Below the pieces are notes generated by a model that was not told where the DNA came from, did not search any database, and was given only the letters and a program-made list of their open reading frames with translations. A stretch of DNA of 51,915 nucleotides from an uncultured Bacteroidales bacterium (GTDB lineage: Bacteria > Bacteroidota > Bacteroidia > Bacteroidales > F082): the NCBI GenBank assembly GCA_900317155.1, contig ONFO01000024.1, forward strand, positions 1-51,915. The letters run 5' to 3'. Positions 2,681 through 26,513 of this stretch are shown piece by piece. The first letter of the stretch is position 1, and the number at the start of each line of letters is the position of its first letter. Made by a program: the position numbers and the translations under genes.

Positions 2681-3316
2681 TTAATCGCCAAGGATATCAT
2701 CCAATCTTTCGGAAAGTTCATTGGCCTCGTTTTCAAGTTCTTCCCTCATGGCAGCCTTGGCAGCTTTATCCGCCAAATCCCGGCTATAGTAAACGATAAC
2801 GCGCACTTCCATGTTGCCGTTCGGGAGGTCACGATACAACTTCACTGGAGTAATCACCTGACCTAACCTTTGGGAGATGAGGTTTTTGCTCGCACTAATA
2901 CTGGTCGCCAAAGAGACGGCTTCTTCTTTGGAGATTTCCTTGTTAGCCAACTTGTTGTCGATGATTTGGATAACACGGGTTTCCATCTTGCCAGCCAGAT
3001 TCAGTTTCGACAAGTTCTCCGCTTGGAACATGGCTGCATCATACACCTGCCCTACCGACATGGCGTCGCCTTGGATGAACTTGTCGTAACCATTTTCATC
3101 CTTTTGTCGCAGCATGACATAAGAATCTTTCAGCTGCATCTCAATCGAGGGGAGCCCAGGAGCCACTTTCCAACCCTCTTTCTTCAACTGTTTGGCTTCC
3201 TGTTTTGCAGTCTTCTCGATTTCCTTCATCTCTCTTTTGCTCAGCTGGGCATAAGAAGTGGGCATAGCAACGGCCATGGCGACCACTAACATCAATAACA
3301 TTCCAAGTTTTTTCAT
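2681..3316 (-). CDS. Exported protein of unknown function, LPP20-like
   Basis: A 211-residue protein with a clear signal peptide (MKKLGMLLMLVVAMAVA, cleavage near SYA-Q). The mature N-terminus is highly charged and helical ('SKREMKEIEKTAKQEAKQL'), probably a short coiled coil. A central segment 'QVYDAAMFQAENLSKLNLAG' followed by 'VIQIIDNKLANKEIS' has the Ala-rich helical pattern of LPP20-like domains, and 'NMEVRVIVYYSRDLA' forms a late strand. It is the first gene of the tight run 3316 to 1. A 142-base gap separates it from the anti-sigma gene, so it probably has its own promoter. I cannot assign a reaction or a partner. Confidence 0.7.
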   Translation of the reverse strand: MKKLGMLLMLVVAMAVAMPTSYAQLSKREMKEIEKTAKQEAKQLKKEGWKVAPGLPSIEMQLKDSYVMLRQKDENGYDKFIQGDAMSVGQVYDAAMFQAENLSKLNLAGKMETRVIQIIDNKLANKEISKEEAVSLATSISASKNLISQRLGQVITPVKLYRDLPNGNMEVRVIVYYSRDLADKAAKAAMREELENEANELSERLDDILGD

Positions 3317-3458
3317 TTTAGTGTTCCTTTCTTTTGTTTGATTTGTATTTGTTTAATTGTTTAATTTGCTAAATAGAGGACACAATTTCAAAAAAATAGT
3401 CCAATTGTTTGGTTTTCTTAGTAATTTATTATCTGTTTCGTTGGTTAACAATGTATAA

Positions 3459-4904
3459 TCATTTCTTTTCCAAAGTAATATACCAAGGATCAGCCAATGA
3501 AGGCCGATACATACCCTCCCACACTTGATAGCCCTCCTTCGTGACTTGCACGCGTTGGGTCTTGTCTTGCTTGGCAAAGGGAATCTCTATCCTGAACTGC
3601 CCGAAGGCATCGGTTTGCACTGTCATGTCTTGCAATGTCACCGTGGCATTTTCAATGGGTTGCTCCGTTTCAAAATCAACCACGCGACCAAACACCACAC
3701 CCAAGTCGTTGTTGCGTTTCAGATTCAGGCTCAACGACTTCTGCACCTTTATCACGGTATCGATAGTTTGGTAGCCATCGGCCTCAAAAACGACATGCAC
3801 GTCGGAGTTTCTGTATTTATAGGGTATCTCATTGAGGAACACAGTGGCATTATCGGCACCCACCTTGATGGTCTGCACCGCGTTGTCGGCATACTCGCAT
3901 TGCAGCGTGCCTTCTGCGAAGGGCAGCGACGGAATGCAGTAGTTCTTGTCTTCGGTAACGTTGATTTTCATCTGCAAAGGTGTCGACACACGCCAGAAGT
4001 AATATCCAATTCCACCTAACAAAAGCAACACTACAATTCCAAGGATATAAAATCTAAGCTTCTTTGCGGTCTCCGGTCCATGAGCCTGTCGAAGGGCCGG
4101 ATCTCCGATATAACCATCTTCCGCCAGCCGCTTGATGATCTCCTCGTATGCCACATCCGCAAACTTGCGCACATAGCCCAATTCGTAGTCGAAATGCTGC
4201 ATCTCAGGATTGGCCGACAAAGGAGCGGGTTGTTTGGTCGACACCATGAAACAGCCCGTATGCTTCCAGCGTTCCATGAACTCGTTGGCCGAATAGGTTT
4301 TGTCTTGCTCGGGATGCGAAGGATCTCTTACCACCACCTTCAAATGGTCGGGGTCGGTGGTGTCGATGCCTGCCACGAGCATCACGTGCTGGGCTTCCGC
4401 AGTATCAGCTGCATCAGCATCAACGCCCACGATGATCTTATGGCCTTGGCTCAGCTCGTGCATGATATGATAGACACCCGCGTTGCGCATCTGCACGGAT
4501 TCCACGCCATAGTGGTTGAGCAACTCACCCACGAAGTCGAAAGCGCTGCCCTTCCCTTCCTCAAACCAGCCTTGCTTCTTGGCCAAAGCCGTCAACTCTT
4601 CCGTGCTCACCTCGATGCCGTAGTTGCGAAGCACCATCTGTTGTGCCTTGATGGCGCAGTCCATCTTTTCAGATGCTGCCGCCAGCGCATATTCATCATA
4701 CTCTATCATGGAGCGGGCAAATACCGATGGACGGGCGATATCTTCCTGATAGGCCATCTCGGCACGGGCAGCGAGAAGGACATCCATTTCATCCTCGTTC
4801 TCGGAAAGATAAGCTTCAACCGCCTTCCTTTCCTCGTCGGTCACCTTGCCTTCAAGATAGCAGGCTATCAGTTCATCGGTGATTTGCATTTTTTCGTTTT
4901 TCAT
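3459..4904 (-). CDS. Membrane anti-sigma-like factor with C39-type cysteine protease domain
   Basis: 481 residues from the ATG at 4904; an in-frame GTG at 4910 overlaps the sigma gene stop. Residues ~1-50 look like an anti-sigma N-terminus ('ITDELIACYLEGKVTDEER'). Residues ~75-220 resemble a peptidase C39/papain-like domain: 'DCAIKAQQMVLRNYG' (Cys83), 'AQHVMLVAGID' (His173) and 'VVVRDPSHP' (Asp194) supply a complete Cys-His-Asp set. A transmembrane helix follows at ~284-305 (YILGIVVLLLLGGIGYYFW). The outer part holds a PEGA-like stretch and a carboxypeptidase-regulatory-like domain ('GVVFGRVVDFETEQPIENAT'). It follows the sigma gene by 2 bases, which supports a sigma/anti-sigma pair. With the helix as the only membrane segment, the protease-like domain would face the cytoplasm beside the sigma-binding part. 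A short repeat is inserted in the linker before the helix. Confidence 0.8.
   Translation of the reverse strand: MKNEKMQITDELIACYLEGKVTDEERKAVEAYLSENEDEMDVLLAARAEMAYQEDIARPSVFARSMIEYDEYALAAASEKMDCAIKAQQMVLRNYGIEVSTEELTALAKKQGWFEEGKGSAFDFVGELLNHYGVESVQMRNAGVYHIMHELSQGHKIIVGVDADAADTAEAQHVMLVAGIDTTDPDHLKVVVRDPSHPEQDKTYSANEFMERWKHTGCFMVSTKQPAPLSANPEMQHFDYELGYVRKFADVAYEEIIKRLAEDGYIGDPALRQAHGPETAKKLRFYILGIVVLLLLGGIGYYFWRVSTPLQMKINVTEDKNYCIPSLPFAEGTLQCEYADNAVQTIKVGADNATVFLNEIPYKYRNSDVHVVFEADGYQTIDTVIKVQKSLSLNLKRNNDLGVVFGRVVDFETEQPIENATVTLQDMTVQTDAFGQFRIEIPFAKQDKTQRVQVTKEGYQVWEGMYRPSLADPWYITLEKK
4075..4100 (-). repeat. Short interspersed repeat inserted in frame
   Basis: The sequence around 'gagcctgtcgaagggccgg' matches the widespread bacterial short repeat whose core is CTTCGACAGGCTCA. 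On the minus strand it is read as the peptide ALRQAHGPE, in the linker between the C39-like domain and the transmembrane helix of the anti-sigma-like protein. The reading frame is kept. Recognition is from memory of this repeat class. Confidence 0.5.
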
Positions 4905-5496: not shown

Positions 5497-6525
5497 CTAT
5501 TCGAAACTCTTCAACATTTCCTTTATTTCATCGATTTGGGTTCTAAAGTTCCCCACCTCCATCTCATTCAACATTTCATACATTCTCAAGGCTTTACGGA
5601 AACAATTCTCTGCCATCACCCTGTCTTGGGCATCCCTAAAGATCATGCCCAGGTAATAACAACTCTTGGCATACCTAGGTCCATCCGCCGCAAACCCGCT
5701 TTCGTACTGTTGGGTATAACTGTCAAGCACCATCACATCAGAATACAGTGAGTCGGGGATGTTGACCAAATCGTATTTACCTTTGGCCACATGGATTTCG
5801 GGATTCGTCATAGGATAGCTTCCTGAAAAAGCAAGATAATCATCCAAGACATCCGTCTCGGGTTCATCGCAAACAAGAGCCAATGCGTCAAACACCTCGC
5901 CCGAAAGGAGCTTCTCGTACAACGGCAGCTCCGTTCCCTTCAGGTCGTCTTGATTGATGCGGGCCATCATGTCGGCATACTCATCCATCCGCAGATAGGC
6001 GGTCTTCAGTTCCGCCTCGGCTTGCGACTCCCAATACTTCAATTCCGGTTCCGTTATCAACTGTTGCGCATACTGACGGTTAAAAAACGACATCGTGGAA
6101 TCGTAACGACGAATAGATGCCGCCTCGAGCAAGGCATAATAACGGGTGCGCGCTTCGGCAACCTTTCCAACAGGGGCCATCACTATCCGCAGGGAATCCT
6201 TGTCCGTCAAAGTGTAGCCTTCACGCGACACGTGATGATTCACCATCTCATAGCCATATTTCTTGGCATTCAATCCGAGCACCACATCACCTACTTTATG
6301 CTCACCGAAGCTAAGGCGAAACAAACCGAAGGCATCGCTCGACGTAGGCTGGCAATCGTGTGCCGATGGAATAGTAATGGCAACGCCCGACAAGGCCTTG
6401 CCTCCTGAATTCATCTCCACCACACAACCGTATTGAACCATTTGAGCCGACAAAAACTCACAAAACATGGCAAGAAATGCCATGAATAACCACTTTTTTC
6501 TACCAAGTAATGTACTCATATTCAT
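5497..6525 (-). CDS. Exported protein with carboxypeptidase-regulatory-like and TPR-like parts
   Basis: 342 residues; MNMSTLLGRKKWLF followed by a hydrophobic signal to ~28 (FLSAQ). A second ATG at 6519 is equally possible. Residues ~30-120 look like a beta-sandwich of the CarboxypepD_reg type ('GGKALSGVAITIPSA', 'SDAFGLFRLSFGEHKVGDVV'). The C-terminal ~70 residues carry one recognisable TPR-like unit ('CYYLGMIFRDAQDRVMAENC', 'FRKALRMYEML'). It lies 2 bases upstream of the sigma gene and 37 bases downstream of the transglutaminase-like gene, so it is probably in the same operon. It may act as the exported sensor or partner of the sigma/anti-sigma pair. That is inference from adjacency and from the shared outer beta-sandwich type. 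Confidence 0.7.
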   Translation of the reverse strand: MNMSTLLGRKKWLFMAFLAMFCEFLSAQMVQYGCVVEMNSGGKALSGVAITIPSAHDCQPTSSDAFGLFRLSFGEHKVGDVVLGLNAKKYGYEMVNHHVSREGYTLTDKDSLRIVMAPVGKVAEARTRYYALLEAASIRRYDSTMSFFNRQYAQQLITEPELKYWESQAEAELKTAYLRMDEYADMMARINQDDLKGTELPLYEKLLSGEVFDALALVCDEPETDVLDDYLAFSGSYPMTNPEIHVAKGKYDLVNIPDSLYSDVMVLDSYTQQYESGFAADGPRYAKSCYYLGMIFRDAQDRVMAENCFRKALRMYEMLNEMEVGNFRTQIDEIKEMLKSFE

Positions 6526-19883: not shown

Positions 19884-21077
19884 ATGCGACAAATCATCAC
19901 CAGCCTGTTAGACAACGACCTCTACACCTTCAGTGTGTGCTACGCCTACCTGCAGAAGTTTCCCCGCGCCATGGGACAATATACCTTCGTCGACCGCAAC
20001 AACACGGTCTATCCCAAAGGCTTTGCCGAGAAGTTGCGCGAACAATTCGACCTTTACGGTAACATCAAAATCACTGACGAGGAAGTGCGTTTCATGAAAC
20101 GGAAATGCTACTATTTCCCGCTGTGGTTCTTCACCTTCCTGAAAGGCTTCCACATGCGGCCCTCCGAAGTCGAGGTGAACCAAGACGAGGAAGGGCACCT
20201 GCACATCACCGTCACGGGCCTGTTGTGGCGCACCGTGTTTTGGGAGATGCCCATCTTGGCCACTGTCTCCGAAATGATGCACGAACTGAAAGGCGAGTTT
20301 GAACACTACGATGCCGAGAAGGAATACCAAAAGTCCTACGCTAAGGGTATCCGCCTCATCGGCAATGGCGTGAAGTTCAGCGACTTCGGCACACGTCGCC
20401 GTTTCTCGTTTGAGCATCAGGATTTGGTCATTCGTAGCTTCATCGAGGCACAGAAACAGTTTACCAAAACCTGTTTCGTGGGTACCTCTAATGTGCTGCT
20501 AGCCATGAAGTACGACCTCACCCCCATTGGCACCATGAGCCACCAATTCATCGAGACCTGCTCACTCTACGGCTACAACGAAGCCAACTATCTCGCCATG
20601 GACTACTGGCAAGAGGTGTATGCCGGCAGCTTAGGTGTATTTCTCTACGACACCTACACCCGCAAGGCCTTCTTCCAAAACTTCACTACCCTGCACGCCA
20701 AACTATTTGACGGACTGCGCGTCGACAGCGGCGACAACTACGAGGCTTTGGAGGAAATCATCAACAAATACAAGGAACTCGGCATCGACCCGGCACAGAA
20801 GTCCATCATCTTCAGCAACGGCCTGAATGTGGACGAGGCCATCGCCATCCATGAGGCTGTCAACGGTAGGATGCTTGATTCGTTCGGCATTGGCACCCAC
20901 CTCACCTGCGACGTCGACAACGTGAAAGCCATGAATATCGTGGTGAAACTCACGGCGGCCAAGATTACCGAGAAGCGTACATGGAAGAAGGTGGTCAAGC
21001 TCAGCGACGACCTCGGCAAGTACACCGGCGACCCTGAAGAGATTGAGATTTGCAAGAAAACGCTGGAAATTGAGTAG
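19884..21077 (+). CDS. pncB: Nicotinate phosphoribosyltransferase
   Basis: 397 residues, normal for PncB. It converts nicotinate and PRPP, with ATP, to nicotinate mononucleotide in NAD salvage. It starts 'ITSLLDNDLYTFSVCYAYLQ', and has 'VGTSNVLLAMKYDLTPIGTM' followed by SHQF, the region of the phosphorylated His; 'GLRVDSGD' and 'IIFSNGLNVDEA' are the conserved PRT-barrel segments. It stands alone between the DUF47 hairpin and the AT-rich nuclease gene, with a 162-base gap upstream and no obvious promoter box. Confidence 0.95.
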   Translation: MRQIITSLLDNDLYTFSVCYAYLQKFPRAMGQYTFVDRNNTVYPKGFAEKLREQFDLYGNIKITDEEVRFMKRKCYYFPLWFFTFLKGFHMRPSEVEVNQDEEGHLHITVTGLLWRTVFWEMPILATVSEMMHELKGEFEHYDAEKEYQKSYAKGIRLIGNGVKFSDFGTRRRFSFEHQDLVIRSFIEAQKQFTKTCFVGTSNVLLAMKYDLTPIGTMSHQFIETCSLYGYNEANYLAMDYWQEVYAGSLGVFLYDTYTRKAFFQNFTTLHAKLFDGLRVDSGDNYEALEEIINKYKELGIDPAQKSIIFSNGLNVDEAIAIHEAVNGRMLDSFGIGTHLTCDVDNVKAMNIVVKLTAAKITEKRTWKKVVKLSDDLGKYTGDPEEIEICKKTLEIE

Positions 21078-21112: not shown

Positions 21113-22360
21113 ATGAATTTGAAAATAAAACATTTGGAGTTTTTTCTCGAAGAGCTAAACATCATCAGAAAAAAGTACGAGGAATTAGATCTTCAAAAAG
21201 AACAATTTAATGTTTTTACGATATTACGAGATGAGAGCGACGAGGTAAAACTACACTCACGATTCATCTCTTCCTTGCTATCTTTTCAAAAGAAAACCCA
21301 ATATTTAGATACTTTTCTCAAAGAAATCGACAGCCAATTCGAATATGGAAATAACACTTTGGAGATTTATCCTTCATATTATTATAAAAACGAATATAAG
21401 GATATTGACATTCTATTAATTGACAGATTAACACAACATGCAATCATCATAGAAAACAAAATCTATGCTCGAGACAGTAATCATGAGGATGAAGGACAAT
21501 TAGAAAAGTATTATCGCATTATTGTTGATGAAGAAAAGATTAATGAAAAAAATGTCGAAATCTATTATATGACTCTTGATGGTCATGACCCCTCGGAACA
21601 AAGTATCTTTACGAGCAAAAAATACCCACAATTAAAAGAGAAGGTTTGTTGCATTTCCTATTCCAACGAAATAAAAAACTGGTTGACAATCTGTGCGAAG
21701 GAAGCTTATAACGAGCCTTTTCAACGCGAAACAATTCTACAATATTTAAAACTTATCAAGACCATGACGAATGATGTAGATATTGAAGAAAGGATTGAAA
21801 TCAAGCGATTAATTGGTGAATCTCAAAACAATCTAAAAAGTGCTAAATTACTAATAGATAATTTAAAACATTTACATTGGCATACTATTTCAGATTTTTG
21901 GGACAATCTTGCGGATTCATTAAAAGCAAAAGGTTTTGAAATTCTTTCTCAACCCCAAGCAGAAGATTTCGACACCATTGTTCATGGAGGAGAAAGGAAG
22001 AGAAAACAGGTCGGTCTGCATATTGATTTCAAGACCAACCTCACATTTAATGCACATATTGAAGAAAACTATTACGATCAACTTGGTTATGGGGTAAATT
22101 TCGCCAAACAAATCCCAAAGAAAACAACAAAAGTTTTTTCAGAGTTATGTGAAAAGTTCGAAAAGTATTCGAGCGATGATAAATGGGCTATTGTTGTCTA
22201 TCCATTATCTGAACAAGAAGAAATATTAAACTCATGGGAAATTGAAAATGATGCTACTTTTCAGATGATAAATCCCGAGTTTCAACACCAAACTATCAAT
22301 AAGATAGTTAGAGGAATTGAGCAGTTTTTAATTGATTATGAAAGCATAAACAATCGATAA
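21113..22360 (+). CDS. PD-(D/E)XK nuclease family protein (PDDEXK_4-like)
   Basis: 415 residues. Residues ~45-60 carry 'LHSRFISSLLSF', as in PDDEXK_4 proteins. The catalytic core is 'YKDIDILLIDR' (Asp97/Asp99) and 'IIIENKIYARD' (Glu114-x-Lys116), followed by 'EGQLEKYY' (Gln129). The rest is helical with no second catalytic set. The gene is markedly AT-rich compared with pncB and the genes beyond 26 kb, which suggests transfer. It stands alone 35 bases after pncB. Such nucleases are often accessory or defence genes; the target is unknown. It lies next to the topB remnant and the inverted-repeat module. Confidence 0.8.
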   Translation: MNLKIKHLEFFLEELNIIRKKYEELDLQKEQFNVFTILRDESDEVKLHSRFISSLLSFQKKTQYLDTFLKEIDSQFEYGNNTLEIYPSYYYKNEYKDIDILLIDRLTQHAIIIENKIYARDSNHEDEGQLEKYYRIIVDEEKINEKNVEIYYMTLDGHDPSEQSIFTSKKYPQLKEKVCCISYSNEIKNWLTICAKEAYNEPFQRETILQYLKLIKTMTNDVDIEERIEIKRLIGESQNNLKSAKLLIDNLKHLHWHTISDFWDNLADSLKAKGFEILSQPQAEDFDTIVHGGERKRKQVGLHIDFKTNLTFNAHIEENYYDQLGYGVNFAKQIPKKTTKVFSELCEKFEKYSSDDKWAIVVYPLSEQEEILNSWEIENDATFQMINPEFQHQTINKIVRGIEQFLIDYESINNR

Positions 22361-22398: not shown

Positions 22399-22455
22399 TC
22401 AAAACGCCTTTCTCCACCCACAGCCATTCCGCCACTCCGAACAGCCGAAAGCCGC
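22399..22455 (-). pseudogene. Remnant of a second topB 3' end
   Basis: Minus-strand codons read AAFGCSEWRNGCGWRKAF then TGA. The intact topB at 24150 ends TAYGCSEWRNGCGWRKAF. Sixteen of 18 residues agree, but the DNA differs at several synonymous positions (TGC/TGT, TCC/TCG, CGA/CGG, GGT/GGC, CGG/AGA, and stop TAG/TGA). Directly upstream in frame is TAA, so only this fragment survives. The pattern indicates descent from a divergent but once functional topB. Confidence 0.75.
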
Positions 22456-22465
22456 TTATCTCAAC

Positions 22466-22490: not shown

Positions 22491-22510
22491 TTGAAAAGAA
22501 AACTCTATAG

Positions 22511-22555
22511 AAAATCAGCCAAAATCAAACATTTTTATCGATTTTGGCTGATTTT
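22511..22555. repeat. Left hairpin of the ATPase module
   Basis: 16-bp perfect stem (22511-22526 with 22540-22555) and a 13-base loop. A run of T follows on the plus strand. Confidence 0.85.
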
Positions 22556-22579
22556 TTATATCATATAAATATATTTATT

Positions 22580-22588
22580 TATCTTTGC
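22580..22588 (+). promoter_or_regulatory. -7 promoter box of the ATPase gene
   Basis: TATCTTTGC fits the Bacteroidota -7 consensus and lies 20 bases before the ATG at 22609. It supports that start over the TTG at 22585, which overlaps the box. It lies within the module. Confidence 0.6.
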
Positions 22589-22608
22589 AGCAATTAATTA
22601 GCATAATA

Positions 22609-24063
22609 ATGAACCCATCTTCAGTTATTGGAAGAGAAGAAGAACTCGCTACTATTTCGAGGCTTTATTCATCAGAGCGTTCTGAGTTTCTTGCCATTTA
22701 CGGGCGTCGTCGTGTCGGCAAGTCATTTCTCATCGAAGAAGCCCTTGGAAATAAAATCACCTTTATGGCTGTTGGATTCTTCCAAAAGATTGATAAAGAC
22801 AGCCCTGAGAAGGTTGAGTCGTACAGGCAGAAACAATTGGCACATTTTTATAACAGCCTTAAGGAATACGGTCTATCGGAAGGAAACCCGAGTCCGACAA
22901 GTTGGATGGAAGCCTTAATGCTTTTGAAGAAGCTATTGCAGAGCAAACGCTCCCGTCGCAAAGTCGTCTTCATCGATGAACTGCCTTGGCTCGCTGGCCC
23001 TCAGTCATCAGAACTATTAGAAGAACTTGGACACTTTTGGAATTCTTGGGCCAGAAAACGCAAAGACATCTTTCTCATCGTATGCGGCTCTGCCACCAGT
23101 TGGATGGTCGACAACGTCATGCGCGATTATGGGGGACTCTACGGAAGAATCACCGAACGCATCTTCCTCAAGCCCTTCACCCTCAAGGAGTGTGAAAAAT
23201 ATTGGATCAAACGAGGTTTTCATCTATCAAGATACGAAATCGCCCTTACCTATATGGTTATCGGTGGCGTGCCTTTCTACATGGACAGCATCCGACCCGA
23301 CAGGACGATGGCTGATAACATCAACGCCATCTATTTCGACAAGGATAAAGCTCGACAGGAATTCAAGGATGTTTACACAGGACTCTATTCAAGTTCCGAA
23401 ATATACATCGAAGTCATCCGTCAATTGGGCAAACGCTTTTACGGGATGACACGAGATGAACTACTCAAAGCCGTCGACAAGAAAGGAGGCGGCACCTTCT
23501 CCGACATTCTCGAAAATCTTATAGACTCTGGCATCATCAGGAGCTATACTCTATTTGGCGGCCCCAGGAAGCAGACTGTTTATCAGTTGGTCGATTTCTT
23601 CACCCTATTCTACTTGCGCTTTGTCGAAAACTCCGACTTTACCTCTTGGCGCTCTTTGCAAAGAAGCAGACCCTTCTACACATGGGCTGGCAACACCTTC
23701 GAGCTTTTAGTTTTGGAGCACATGCCCAAACTCGCCGACGCGCTCCGCATAAAAGAATATGCAACGCCATTCAGCTGGAAAGGAAAAACACCCGAGGGCG
23801 AGGGAGTCCAAGTGGACCTGATAATCCCGGCCACCGCCGAGCGGGCCGACTATATCTGCGAGATGAAATTCTCGGAGGGCAAATACACCTTGTCAAACGA
23901 CGATGTCGAGGAATTTACAAAGCAAATATCCGCCCTAAAAAATGCCAAAATCCACAAGCCCAGCCACTCCATCTATGTCACACTTGTCACAACTATTGGA
24001 GCAACAGATTCAAAACATAGATTACATGTAAATGAAATAGTTACACTTGAATCATTCTTTTAG
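22609..24063 (+). CDS. AAA ATPase with DUF234-type C-terminus
   Basis: 484 residues. Walker A is 'YGRRRVGKSFLIEEA' (residues ~31-45) and Walker B is 'VVFIDELPWLAG' (~119-130). The central region holds a winged-helix-like segment ('LGKRFYGMTRDELLKAVDKK'). The C-terminal ~90 residues include 'GVQVDLIIPA' and 'YICEMKFSEGK', a PD-(D/E)XK-like core as in the DUF234 domain. This ATPase/DUF234 family is multi-copy in many Bacteroidota and archaea, with unsettled function. It is flanked by perfect inverted repeats, and its stop codon is the first triplet of the 48-bp repeat copy on the right. Confidence 0.88.
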   Translation: MNPSSVIGREEELATISRLYSSERSEFLAIYGRRRVGKSFLIEEALGNKITFMAVGFFQKIDKDSPEKVESYRQKQLAHFYNSLKEYGLSEGNPSPTSWMEALMLLKKLLQSKRSRRKVVFIDELPWLAGPQSSELLEELGHFWNSWARKRKDIFLIVCGSATSWMVDNVMRDYGGLYGRITERIFLKPFTLKECEKYWIKRGFHLSRYEIALTYMVIGGVPFYMDSIRPDRTMADNINAIYFDKDKARQEFKDVYTGLYSSSEIYIEVIRQLGKRFYGMTRDELLKAVDKKGGGTFSDILENLIDSGIIRSYTLFGGPRKQTVYQLVDFFTLFYLRFVENSDFTSWRSLQRSRPFYTWAGNTFELLVLEHMPKLADALRIKEYATPFSWKGKTPEGEGVQVDLIIPATAERADYICEMKFSEGKYTLSNDDVEEFTKQISALKNAKIHKPSHSIYVTLVTTIGATDSKHRLHVNEIVTLESFF

Positions 24064-24108
24064 AAAATCAGCCAAAATCAAACATTTTTATCGATTTTGG
24101 CTGATTTT
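24064..24108. repeat. Right hairpin of the ATPase module
   Basis: Identical in sequence to the left hairpin (16-bp stem, 13-base loop) and starting right after the ATPase stop codon. It could terminate both the ATPase (plus) and topB (minus) transcripts. Confidence 0.85.
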
Positions 24109-24149
24109 CTATAGATTGATGATTGAAGAAAATATACCAACGAATGCGT

Positions 24150-26513
24150 CTAAAACGCCTTCCGCCACCCACAACCATTTCGCCACTCGGAGCAGCCGTA
24201 AGCCGTTTTACCTTTTATAATATGTCCTTTGCCGCATAATGGACATGGCTGCCCGATGATAGCATCAGTATTATCAAAATTATTTGATGCAGGATGCTCT
24301 TCCAAATTCACAGGATTCACCTCTATCTTCTCAATTTGAATACCATATTTCTTTGCTAAGAAACGCAATGCTTCGGGATAGGTGTAATGCTCGTGTTCCA
24401 TAAGGAACTTAACAGAATCACCTCCTTTACCACAACTGAAACACTTAAATATGTTTCGTGCTGGATTCACATTAAAAGTTCCTGACTTATCATCATGAAA
24501 AGGACAAAATCCATTCAAATTAGCCCCATGCCTCTTAAGCGTAACAAATTCGCCAACCACCTCTTCAATACGGGCTGCCTGTAGTATTTCACTTACAGTC
24601 TCTCTAGGAATAGATTTTTTTGTTGTAGATTTGGGAGAAACTGCCTTAGGTGTTTGCTCTGAGGATTTCTTGGCAGCCATCTTTTTCGGCACCAACTTCT
24701 TCGGCTTCTCCTCCACCACTGCCGCCGCAACACGTCGGTTGCTGTTGTCCAGCATCACCGAAGTGACAATCTCCGTTACCATCTGCTTCAGCTCATCGAG
24801 GAACTGCCGCGCCTCGTATTTGTGCTGCTCAATCTCACGGAGTTTCTTCTCCCAGATACCCGTCAACTCGGCACTCTTCAGCAAATCCTCATGAATAAGA
24901 CCGATAAGCTCGATACCCGTTGGTGTAGGCTCCAAGCTTTTGCGAACCTTCCTGATATAGTTGCGTTTGAACAACGTTTCAATGATAGCCGCTCGTGTTG
25001 AAGGCCGTCCGATACCGTTTTCCTTCATCACCTCGCGCAACGACTCGTCGTCGACCAACTTGCCCGCCGTTTCCATGGCTCGAAGCAGCGTAGCTTCAGT
25101 ATATGGCTTCGGCGGCGAAGTCCACTTCTCAGCCAATTGTGGCTGGTGCGGTCCGTGCTCACCCTTCACAAAAATAGGCAAGGTCTTCTCCTCGTCTTCC
25201 CCCTCTTTCTTTTCTTCTTCCTGCTTCATCGGCTTGATGACCTCACGCCAGCCAGGCACTAAAATCTGTTTGCCTGACGTTTTGAACTCAACGTCTTCCA
25301 CTTTACCCAACACTGTCGTCGTGGCAAACTGGCAGTCGGGATAGAACACGGCGATGAAATGGCGGCAGACCTCATCGTAGACCTGCTGTTCGACAAAACT
25401 CAACCCCGTCGGAACCACACCCGTCGGGATGATGGCATGGTGGTCGGTGACCTTGCTGTTGTCGAACACCTTCTTGCTCTTGGGCAATTTCTTACCCGCC
25501 AAAGGCGCTGTGTATTCGGCATAATTGGTCAGTTTCGCCAAGATGTCGGGACACTTGGGATAGATGTCATCACTCAAATAAGTCGTGTCGACACGCGGAT
25601 AGGTGGTGTATTTCTTCTCGTAAAGGCTCTGGATGGTCTGCAAGGTTTGGTCGGCGGACAAATTGTATTTCTTGTTGCACTCCACCTGCAAGGAAGTCAA
25701 ATCATACAGCCTCGGCGGGGCTTCCGTGCCTTTCTTTGTAGAGATATCGGTTACAGTAAACTCTTTTCCCTCAATGCTTTGTAAGTCTTTTTGGCCGTCC
25801 TCAACCGAGCCATATTTGCCCTTGGTGGCCGTAAAAGCCGTATCCCTATAAACGGTCGACAACACCCAATAAGCCTCTGGCTTGAAGTTCGCGATTTCGT
25901 GATATCGGTTGACAATCAGTGCCAAGGTTGGGGTCTGTACCCTGCCAATGGACAGCACCTGTCGGTTTTGGCCATATTTCAAGGTATAGAGACGTGTGGC
26001 ATTCATGCCCAAGAGCCAGTCACCGATGGCACGCGAGAGACCCGCTTCATAAAGTGACTGATAATCTGTCTGGTCTTTCAAAGTCTTGAAACCTTCCCTG
26101 ATGGACTCCTCAGTCAAAGAGGAAATCCAAAGACGTTTTACCGGACACTTTACTGCGGCCTTTTGCATCACCCAACGCTGGATGAGCTCGCCCTCCTGAC
26201 CAGCATCACCGCAGTTCACGATTTCGTCAGCCTTTTGAAACAACGACTCGATGACCTTAAACTGTTTCTCAACACCTTTGTCCGCAATCAGTTTAATGCC
26301 AAACCGTTGCGGGATCATCGGTAGTCGGCTCAAAGCCCATGCTTTCCACTGGTCGGTGTAATCGTGTGGCTCTTTCAGGGTACAAAGATGACCGAAGGTC
26401 CAAGTCACCTGGTAGCCATTACCCTCCATGTAACCCTCATGAGTGGTGTTGGCTCCCAACACCTTGGCGATGTCGCGGGCGACACTTGGCTTTTCGGCAA
26501 TGCAAACGATCAT
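24150..26513 (-). CDS. topB: DNA topoisomerase III with C-terminal CHC2 primase-type zinc domain
   Basis: 787 residues. TOPRIM starts 'MIVCIAEKPSVARDIAKVLG'; the catalytic Tyr is in 'YTTYPRVDTTYLSDDIYP' (~residue 315). The type IA core runs to ~590 and a Lys-rich linker follows. Residues ~640-728 match the DnaG N-terminal zinc domain: 'CPFHDDKSGTFNV' (Cys670, His673) and 'IFKCFSCGKGGDSVKFLMEH' (Cys691, Cys694). The last ~35 residues are a zinc-ribbon-like tail ('CPLCGKGH', 'YGCSEWRNGCGW'). It relaxes and decatenates DNA via a 5'-phosphotyrosine intermediate. The CHC2 part is not in standard TopB and looks more AT-rich than the core. Its start overlaps the antiporter stop by 4 bases. Confidence 0.92.
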   Translation of the reverse strand: MIVCIAEKPSVARDIAKVLGANTTHEGYMEGNGYQVTWTFGHLCTLKEPHDYTDQWKAWALSRLPMIPQRFGIKLIADKGVEKQFKVIESLFQKADEIVNCGDAGQEGELIQRWVMQKAAVKCPVKRLWISSLTEESIREGFKTLKDQTDYQSLYEAGLSRAIGDWLLGMNATRLYTLKYGQNRQVLSIGRVQTPTLALIVNRYHEIANFKPEAYWVLSTVYRDTAFTATKGKYGSVEDGQKDLQSIEGKEFTVTDISTKKGTEAPPRLYDLTSLQVECNKKYNLSADQTLQTIQSLYEKKYTTYPRVDTTYLSDDIYPKCPDILAKLTNYAEYTAPLAGKKLPKSKKVFDNSKVTDHHAIIPTGVVPTGLSFVEQQVYDEVCRHFIAVFYPDCQFATTTVLGKVEDVEFKTSGKQILVPGWREVIKPMKQEEEKKEGEDEEKTLPIFVKGEHGPHQPQLAEKWTSPPKPYTEATLLRAMETAGKLVDDESLREVMKENGIGRPSTRAAIIETLFKRNYIRKVRKSLEPTPTGIELIGLIHEDLLKSAELTGIWEKKLREIEQHKYEARQFLDELKQMVTEIVTSVMLDNSNRRVAAAVVEEKPKKLVPKKMAAKKSSEQTPKAVSPKSTTKKSIPRETVSEILQAARIEEVVGEFVTLKRHGANLNGFCPFHDDKSGTFNVNPARNIFKCFSCGKGGDSVKFLMEHEHYTYPEALRFLAKKYGIQIEKIEVNPVNLEEHPASNNFDNTDAIIGQPCPLCGKGHIIKGKTAYGCSEWRNGCGWRKAF

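Follow-up and report, generated by a model that had tools for sequence, protein, structure and literature searches.

A candidate mobile cassette of one STAND ATPase-nuclease gene, flanked by palindromes that change with the protein subfamily

A 51,915-nt stretch of DNA from a rumen bacterium (hereafter the window, meaning the whole stretch analysed) contains a cassette with one gene, which lies between two direct copies of a palindrome (Table 1). Comparison with homologous loci makes it rather probable, in our judgement, that this is a mobile single-gene cassette whose palindrome serves as the cognate site of its own STAND ATPase-nuclease, a protein with a probable role in defence.

The earlier note on this DNA described a segment sealed between inverted termini, and the matches behind that description were all recovered. 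Positions 22505-22526 are the exact reverse complement of 24093-24114 (22 nt), the two ends share an identical 48-nt stretch (22508-22555 and 24061-24108), and each end is self-complementary, with left arms of 21 nt (95%), right arms of 19 nt (100%) and a loop of 13 nt. Inverted termini as the defining feature, however, were not supported: the 48-nt identity is part of a 53-nt direct repeat that is 98% identical, whereas the window ends aligned in inverted orientation are only 82% identical over 55 nt. Direct copies of one palindrome therefore fit better, and the 22-nt inverted match exists because each end copy is itself a palindrome. Single-strand DNA folding gave z-scores of -7.9 to -9.7 for the four strands, with none of 200 shuffles matching the value on any of them, and the palindrome pattern occurred twice in the window and not at all in 100 shuffled windows. 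The box TATCTTTG, which we assign to the Bacteroidota -7 promoter type, starts 19 nt past the left palindrome. Reading of the window sequence revealed no short target-site duplication of the classical insertion sequence kind flanking 22505 and 24114.

Table 1. Positions of the cassette, its parts and its neighbours in the window.
Feature	Coordinates	Strand	Basis or remark
Upstream palindrome, TATAGAAAATCAGCCAAAATC-13-GATTTTGGCTGATTTTTTATA	22506..22560		Repeat search; 94.2% of cells paired in clade alignment
Downstream palindrome	24061..24113		Direct repeat of the upstream palindrome (98%); begins with the three bases of the stop codon
TATCTTTG, presumed Bacteroidota-type -7 promoter box	22580..22587	+	Read from sequence
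ATPase gene, 484 aa: ATPase_2/STAND, likely winged-helix region, PD-(D/E)XK nuclease; PDC-S27	22609..24063	+	
C-terminal PD-(D/E)XK domain, about residues 340-484	23626..24060	+	E365, E418 and K420 invariant; D403 in at least 90%
397-aa ORF called NAPRT	19884..21077	+	Its end abuts the topB end in empty relatives
PDDEXK_4 gene, candidate defence family PDC-S26	21113..22360	+	Absent at this spot in L015
Displaced 57-nt copy of topB 3' end, 86%	22401..22457	-	Adjoins NAPRT gene end in L015
topB-type topoisomerase gene, own 3' end	24150..26513	-	Stretch matching the displaced copy is 24152-24208

The gene inside had been called an AAA/DUF234 ATPase. A single ATPase gene is indeed present; DUF234 (PF03008) is absent from the matches of the window protein at E≤0.01 and was matched in 19 of 58 relatives. 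The remaining ORFs within 22505-24114 are short and all overlap the ATPase gene, and no transposase was recognised there, leaving the ATPase as the sole gene. The suggestion of a cassette with a regulatory- or defence-type ATPase that is unlike an ordinary insertion sequence is supported. The product matches the PADLOC model of PDC-S27 (PDLC04984) almost end to end (residues 5-484, E 1.8e-150) and ATPase_2 (PF01637) at 67.6 bits, against a cut-off of 33.2. Walker A/B residues with an NLR/SSO1545-like predicted fold identify it as a STAND ATPase, and a D...ExK motif with the predicted fold identifies a PD-(D/E)XK nuclease; the STAND ATPases SSO1545 (2fna) and PABY2304 (2qen) are among the closest known systems. 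ATPase genes of this kind are under purifying selection (dN/dS 0.03-0.11 in 10 of 11 homolog pairs, the remaining pair being saturated).

A defence role is suggested by the STAND-plus-nuclease layout together with the PADLOC match, and in the cell the protein is probably a dormant sensor with a nuclease, directed against phages or plasmids. Since its ATPase and nuclease residues are retained, it might also act on its own ends, and the cassette may or may not be non-autonomous as the earlier note suggested. In the portions of the literature consulted, PDC-S27 is treated as an abundant defence candidate (PMC12988326, PMC13356809), with 3503 archaeal and 4562 bacterial systems (PMC12988326) and 2865 in rumen genomes (PMC13356809), and most PDCs are said still to await validation as defence systems (PMC12988326). 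The same portions describe the family with no mention of cognate palindromes, cassette boundaries or clean loss (PMC12988326, PMC13356809).

Homologs were present in 39 of 60 sampled genus genomes, with 0 to at least 26 per genome (26 at most were scored in any one); a scan of the species genomes yielded 52 loci, and the window's own genome holds nine ATPase copies. A set of 109 distinct genus genes was collected, 80 of the loci being picked by hand among the matches listed; two genes without full flanks were dropped before the association count and one before the palindrome survey. A long-stem palindrome was found within 200 nt upstream of 97 of 107 homologs, compared with 11 of 137 neighbouring non-ATPase ORFs, which were selected by length and are not annotated genes, and with 0 of 107 shuffled upstream regions, the mononucleotide shuffle preserving single-base composition only. 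The palindrome was repeated downstream (≥12 nt) in 46 of the 107 homologs and in none of the 137 ORFs (Fisher 3e-20), or in 48 and one, respectively, at a looser ≥10 nt; at ≥12 nt the downstream copy is absent in 61 of 107. Within the window's own genome, eight of the nine copies have the upstream palindrome and two have a matched downstream one. Matched upstream and downstream pairs (n=62) were direct in 47 cases and inverted in 15. The TAnnTTTG box is present in 122 of 135 distinct palindrome-bearing genes; in 101 of these 122, 0-40 nt separate the end of the palindrome from the box downstream of it, the position expected of an operator, and in 11 the two overlap. Two or more upstream palindromes occur in 50 of the 135 genes.

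The association also holds when the palindromes are searched for directly. In a set of overlapping loci, mostly chosen for containing ATPases, 353 of 376 palindrome matches have an ATPase ORF no more than 260 nt away; four of the other 23 are a promoter repeat mis-picked in L098, and the rest are mostly sites discussed here. The earlier note would have been undermined had the repeats been common elsewhere without ATPases, and this was not found: the window palindrome was matched at E≤1e-5 in 10 of 99 genus genomes, nine of them with a full ATPase alongside. Genome G064 has it twice, both times as deletion remnants, and in G081 a second copy adjoins a 66-residue ATPase fragment. Among weaker matches (E 5e-5 to 0.01), five of the six loci inspected were away from ATPases. 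The phylum search returned a match in 14 of 198 genomes, the window's own counted, and outside the genus a palindrome was scored for seven of eight strong homologs and two of six weak ones. Homologs from other Bacteroidota families and classes, from a plasmid of Butyrivibrio and from a contig of a gut phage share the plan with different sequences. For viral, plasmid and phage records (nine viral loci found and seven used; seven plasmid or phage loci taken among the matches listed), an upstream palindrome was scored in 8 of 14 homologs and absent in 6. In Wolbachia phage WO (L340, MN180249) the ATPase is annotated as a DUF234 fusion and lies among phage genes, and two tandem ACCGCGG...TATAAT...CCGCGGT-like sequences were seen by eye upstream of it.

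Palindrome and protein co-diverge by subfamily. Grouped at 70% protein identity, the 137 palindrome-bearing entries (four genes counted twice) yield 38 clusters, and TCAGCC, AAAAGTGTCC, TCCGTTCATAGC and CTCTGCGGAAAG are among their palindrome types; the TCAGCC type is common to two large clusters that are ∼52% identical to each other. An arm word of at least 8 nt is common to 80% of pairs at 70-85% protein identity, 12-14% at 50-70%, 3% below 50% and 1% when shuffled. Throughout the window clade, which spans 98% to 49% protein identity, the invariant upstream columns are parts of the arms and the promoter box, and TA..TTTG is invariant across 32 aligned upstream regions. Pairing in the clade alignment (94.2% of palindrome cells) was reached by none of 500 shuffles, and the covariation score exceeds all 500. 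The number of pairs with changes on both sides (8 of 16) was matched by 83 of 500 shuffles and the value for further pair types was reached by 102 of 500, neither being beyond chance. This signal is expected equally of a hairpin and of a protein site with two-fold symmetry, so pairing cannot separate the two. In the upstream palindromes of near relatives, the A/T-rich loop appears flipped between L043 and L052 and between L033 and L034 (A run versus T run), as if it inverts between the arms.

The cassette occupies changing contexts, and many breakpoints fall at the palindrome or the stop codon. A comparison of empty and filled loci on the topB 3' side, proposed in the earlier note, found both states among relatives. 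In the empty state the 397-aa ORF, which we read as NAPRT from its sequence, abuts topB (L078, L079, L094); L015 has the cassette and the topB-tail copy, the window has the PDDEXK_4 gene in addition to these, and L020 has the cassette plus two other genes. Other members of the window clade lie elsewhere, for example with an ABC-transporter gene as neighbour or with unrelated genes on both sides. The ATPase does not sit at one fixed spot in all relatives, the other finding that would have undermined the earlier note. For the 57-nt topB copy (86%), a target-site duplication and the att site of a lost integrase were both considered, and neither was established. The topB/NAPRT spot, which varies between species, is shared by a PDC-S26 gene and a PDC-S27 gene.

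In 20 of the clade loci at other sites (L016-L019, L021-L036), the stretch shared with the window has its left limit between 22507 and 22511 in 16 cases and its right limit between 24111 and 24120 in eight. Close relatives (86-97% DNA identity) can occupy unrelated contexts. Breakpoints were counted in 92 pairs at ≥86% DNA identity after removal of four duplicate genes and of the mis-picked L098 promoter repeat; the pairs share members, with 11 of 17 gene clusters contributing on the left and 10 of 17 on the right, and the genomes include metagenome assemblies, in which contig edges can mislead. Left flanks were unrelated in 42 of the 92, and 19 of these break within 8 nt of the palindrome edge (3.4 expected under a uniform null, with a maximum of 11 in 1000 draws). 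Right flanks were unrelated in 45, of which 10 break at the palindrome edge and 21 at the stop codon (4.7 expected under the null, maximum 14). Breakpoints at neither position numbered 23 of 42 on the left and 14 of 45 on the right, and where both flanks were unrelated (23 pairs) both sides fell at such an edge in only seven. Within single genomes, no two ATPase copies were >61% identical (88 copies, nine genomes; lists incomplete), which argues against copy-and-paste and led us to judge self-mobility less likely and a purely operator function more likely. Accordingly, no palindrome type was seen to recur in one genome with closely similar proteins. At L034, positions 3007-3764 and 5519-6021 flank the ATPase, and both match one integrase-like ORF region of L033 at ∼93%.

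Clean loss was observed at one site in several species. For the CAACTCTGCGGAAAGTGC family, the gap between two genes that we read as elbB and enoyl-CoA hydratase, or one side of that gap, was inspected in 18 of 88 matching genomes. In G024, G019, G085 and G028 the gap is short and contains nothing; in G080 it contains palindrome-ATPase-palindrome and no more, whereas in G055, G084 and G049 this unit is joined by extra genes. A solo palindrome occupies the gap in G012, G007, G018 and G047, and in G003 and G043 a solo is accompanied by other genes. The unit is flanked in G088 by a biotin-carboxylase-like gene on one side and the hydratase on the other, and in G056 it adjoins that carboxylase. 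All four gene-free solos are chimeric, joining the outer left flank of the upstream copy to the outer right flank of the downstream copy, the pattern expected from deletion of the unit by exchange between its two copies. Insertion into a solo, the reverse reaction, would predict identical sequences. Direct repeats of ∼50 nt can recombine without a special enzyme. A further solo, L222 (G055:C14), was set aside as proof: its left flank is that of L145 and its right flank diverges after a few bases.

Loss in the window's own family was ragged where we saw it: in G064 two decayed copies retain the last ATPase codons and the right palindrome. No clean solo of this family was seen, the solitary palindromes of G064 being deletion remnants; the one on G064:C86 was rejected as a clean solo because its flanking bases are the last ATPase codons. 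In G018 a second solo, belonging to another ATPase family, adjoins the first, and by eye the same holds for G047. Solos of the L174-type ATPase family, without its ATPase, were found at L226:1584-1631 and L231:5252-5304, next to or near the first. Copies of the enoyl-CoA hydratase tail (43-62 nt by alignment) flank a different ATPase (MERLMQRYQ..., taken to be AAA_14/DUF4143) in G055 and G084, and G083 also carries a duplicated tail. Yet another ATPase type (IIREGQD...) is held by the elbB/hydratase gap at L304:626-1885 (G082) and, on the reverse strand, in L300 (G049), so the gap is a general insertion spot.

Since the private palindromes change with the protein and adjoin the promoter, the simplest account is that the protein binds the palindrome and represses itself. 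We propose that the cassette (22506-24113) would arrive at gene ends together with its palindrome, and that its product would bind that palindrome as a putative cognate DNA site, for autoregulation and perhaps also for end recognition. The upstream copy would most likely be the operator for self-repression, and the downstream copy, following the stop codon, would mark the far end or permit clean loss. Recombination between the two would remove the cassette and leave one chimeric palindrome. In mobile elements, one protein often both represses its own gene and binds the element ends. Binding by the own protein, repression, the defence role and the insertion route are what we infer from these comparisons. 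A stronger claim, that STAND ATPase-PD-(D/E)XK nucleases constitute a new class of mobile element that represses itself and excises or inserts its own cassette at the palindromes without a known transposase or recombinase, seems to us doubtful.

Alternatively, the palindromes would be operators only, belonging to a self-regulated defence gene that spreads by ordinary horizontal transfer and homologous recombination; the palindrome edge would then mimic a boundary because the functional region stops there. Where a promoter box is present, the palindrome mostly adjoins it, it surrounds the box itself in the distant homologs L309, L310, L321 and L340, and the upstream copy is far more frequent than the downstream one. 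The ≤61% identity among 88 copies in nine genomes likewise resembles a repertoire rather than a spreading element. However, operators alone do not explain why 46 of 107 homologs repeat the palindrome beyond the stop codon, nor the palindrome-edge breakpoints at 93-97% DNA identity or the chimeric solos, and we regard this account as a real possibility, though an unlikely one. Bidirectional transcription terminators or insulators would suit the A/T-rich outer arms and the placement directly after the stop codon in the window, yet many palindromes of other subfamilies have no T run, the palindrome sequence is subfamily-specific and neighbouring ORFs have no matched pairs. A terminator scan found none, its loop limit of 8 making it uninformative here; of all the explanations we give this one the least credence.

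Mobility might instead be driven by a dedicated enzyme. If the ATPase-nuclease cut its own palindromes and moved the cassette, the proximity of 353 of 376 palindrome matches to an ATPase ORF (≤260 nt), a private palindrome for each subfamily, conserved nuclease residues and a patchy spread would all be expected. We nevertheless consider this quite unlikely: no transposase chemistry is known from this fold alone, no target-site duplication was seen, close within-genome copies are lacking (top identity 61% among the 88 copies in nine genomes) and a single homologous recombination event is enough for the observed loss. Movement in trans by an enzyme encoded elsewhere, such as an IS200/IS605- or RAYT-like hairpin transposase, would be in keeping with hairpins that are direct in 47 of 62 matched pairs, as at IS200/IS605 ends; but 38 clusters with different palindromes would require many matching enzymes, and the palindromes track the ATPase gene, so that we hold it to be very unlikely. 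Our preferred reading remains a mobile cassette whose palindrome is probably the cognate site of its own protein.

What is new is the packaging of a defence-candidate gene as a cassette tagged with palindromes; the protein family itself was already known. No published account of these palindromes was found among the matches listed in the open-licence PMC literature. With a palindrome of its own in each of 38 protein clusters, the family offers a ready-made substrate for comparing a protein's own DNA sites with those of its cousins, and solo palindromes let the spread and loss of single-gene defence candidates be traced in sequence. Such a nuclease-sensor might even move itself; self-mobilisation would be new if true.

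Two known systems invite comparison. RAYT/REP and IS200/IS605 elements consist of a gene plus its own hairpins, and the cassette resembles them in having a single gene with its own hairpins, mostly direct, whose sequences change with the protein. Unlike them, it has no recognised Y1 HUH transposase in the unit (ATPase only), and few solitary palindromes were seen. Integron gene cassettes with attC likewise combine one gene with a foldable palindrome at the stop codon and exchange at palindromes, whereas here a palindrome also lies upstream, the promoter is inside the unit and the palindrome is private to the subfamily.
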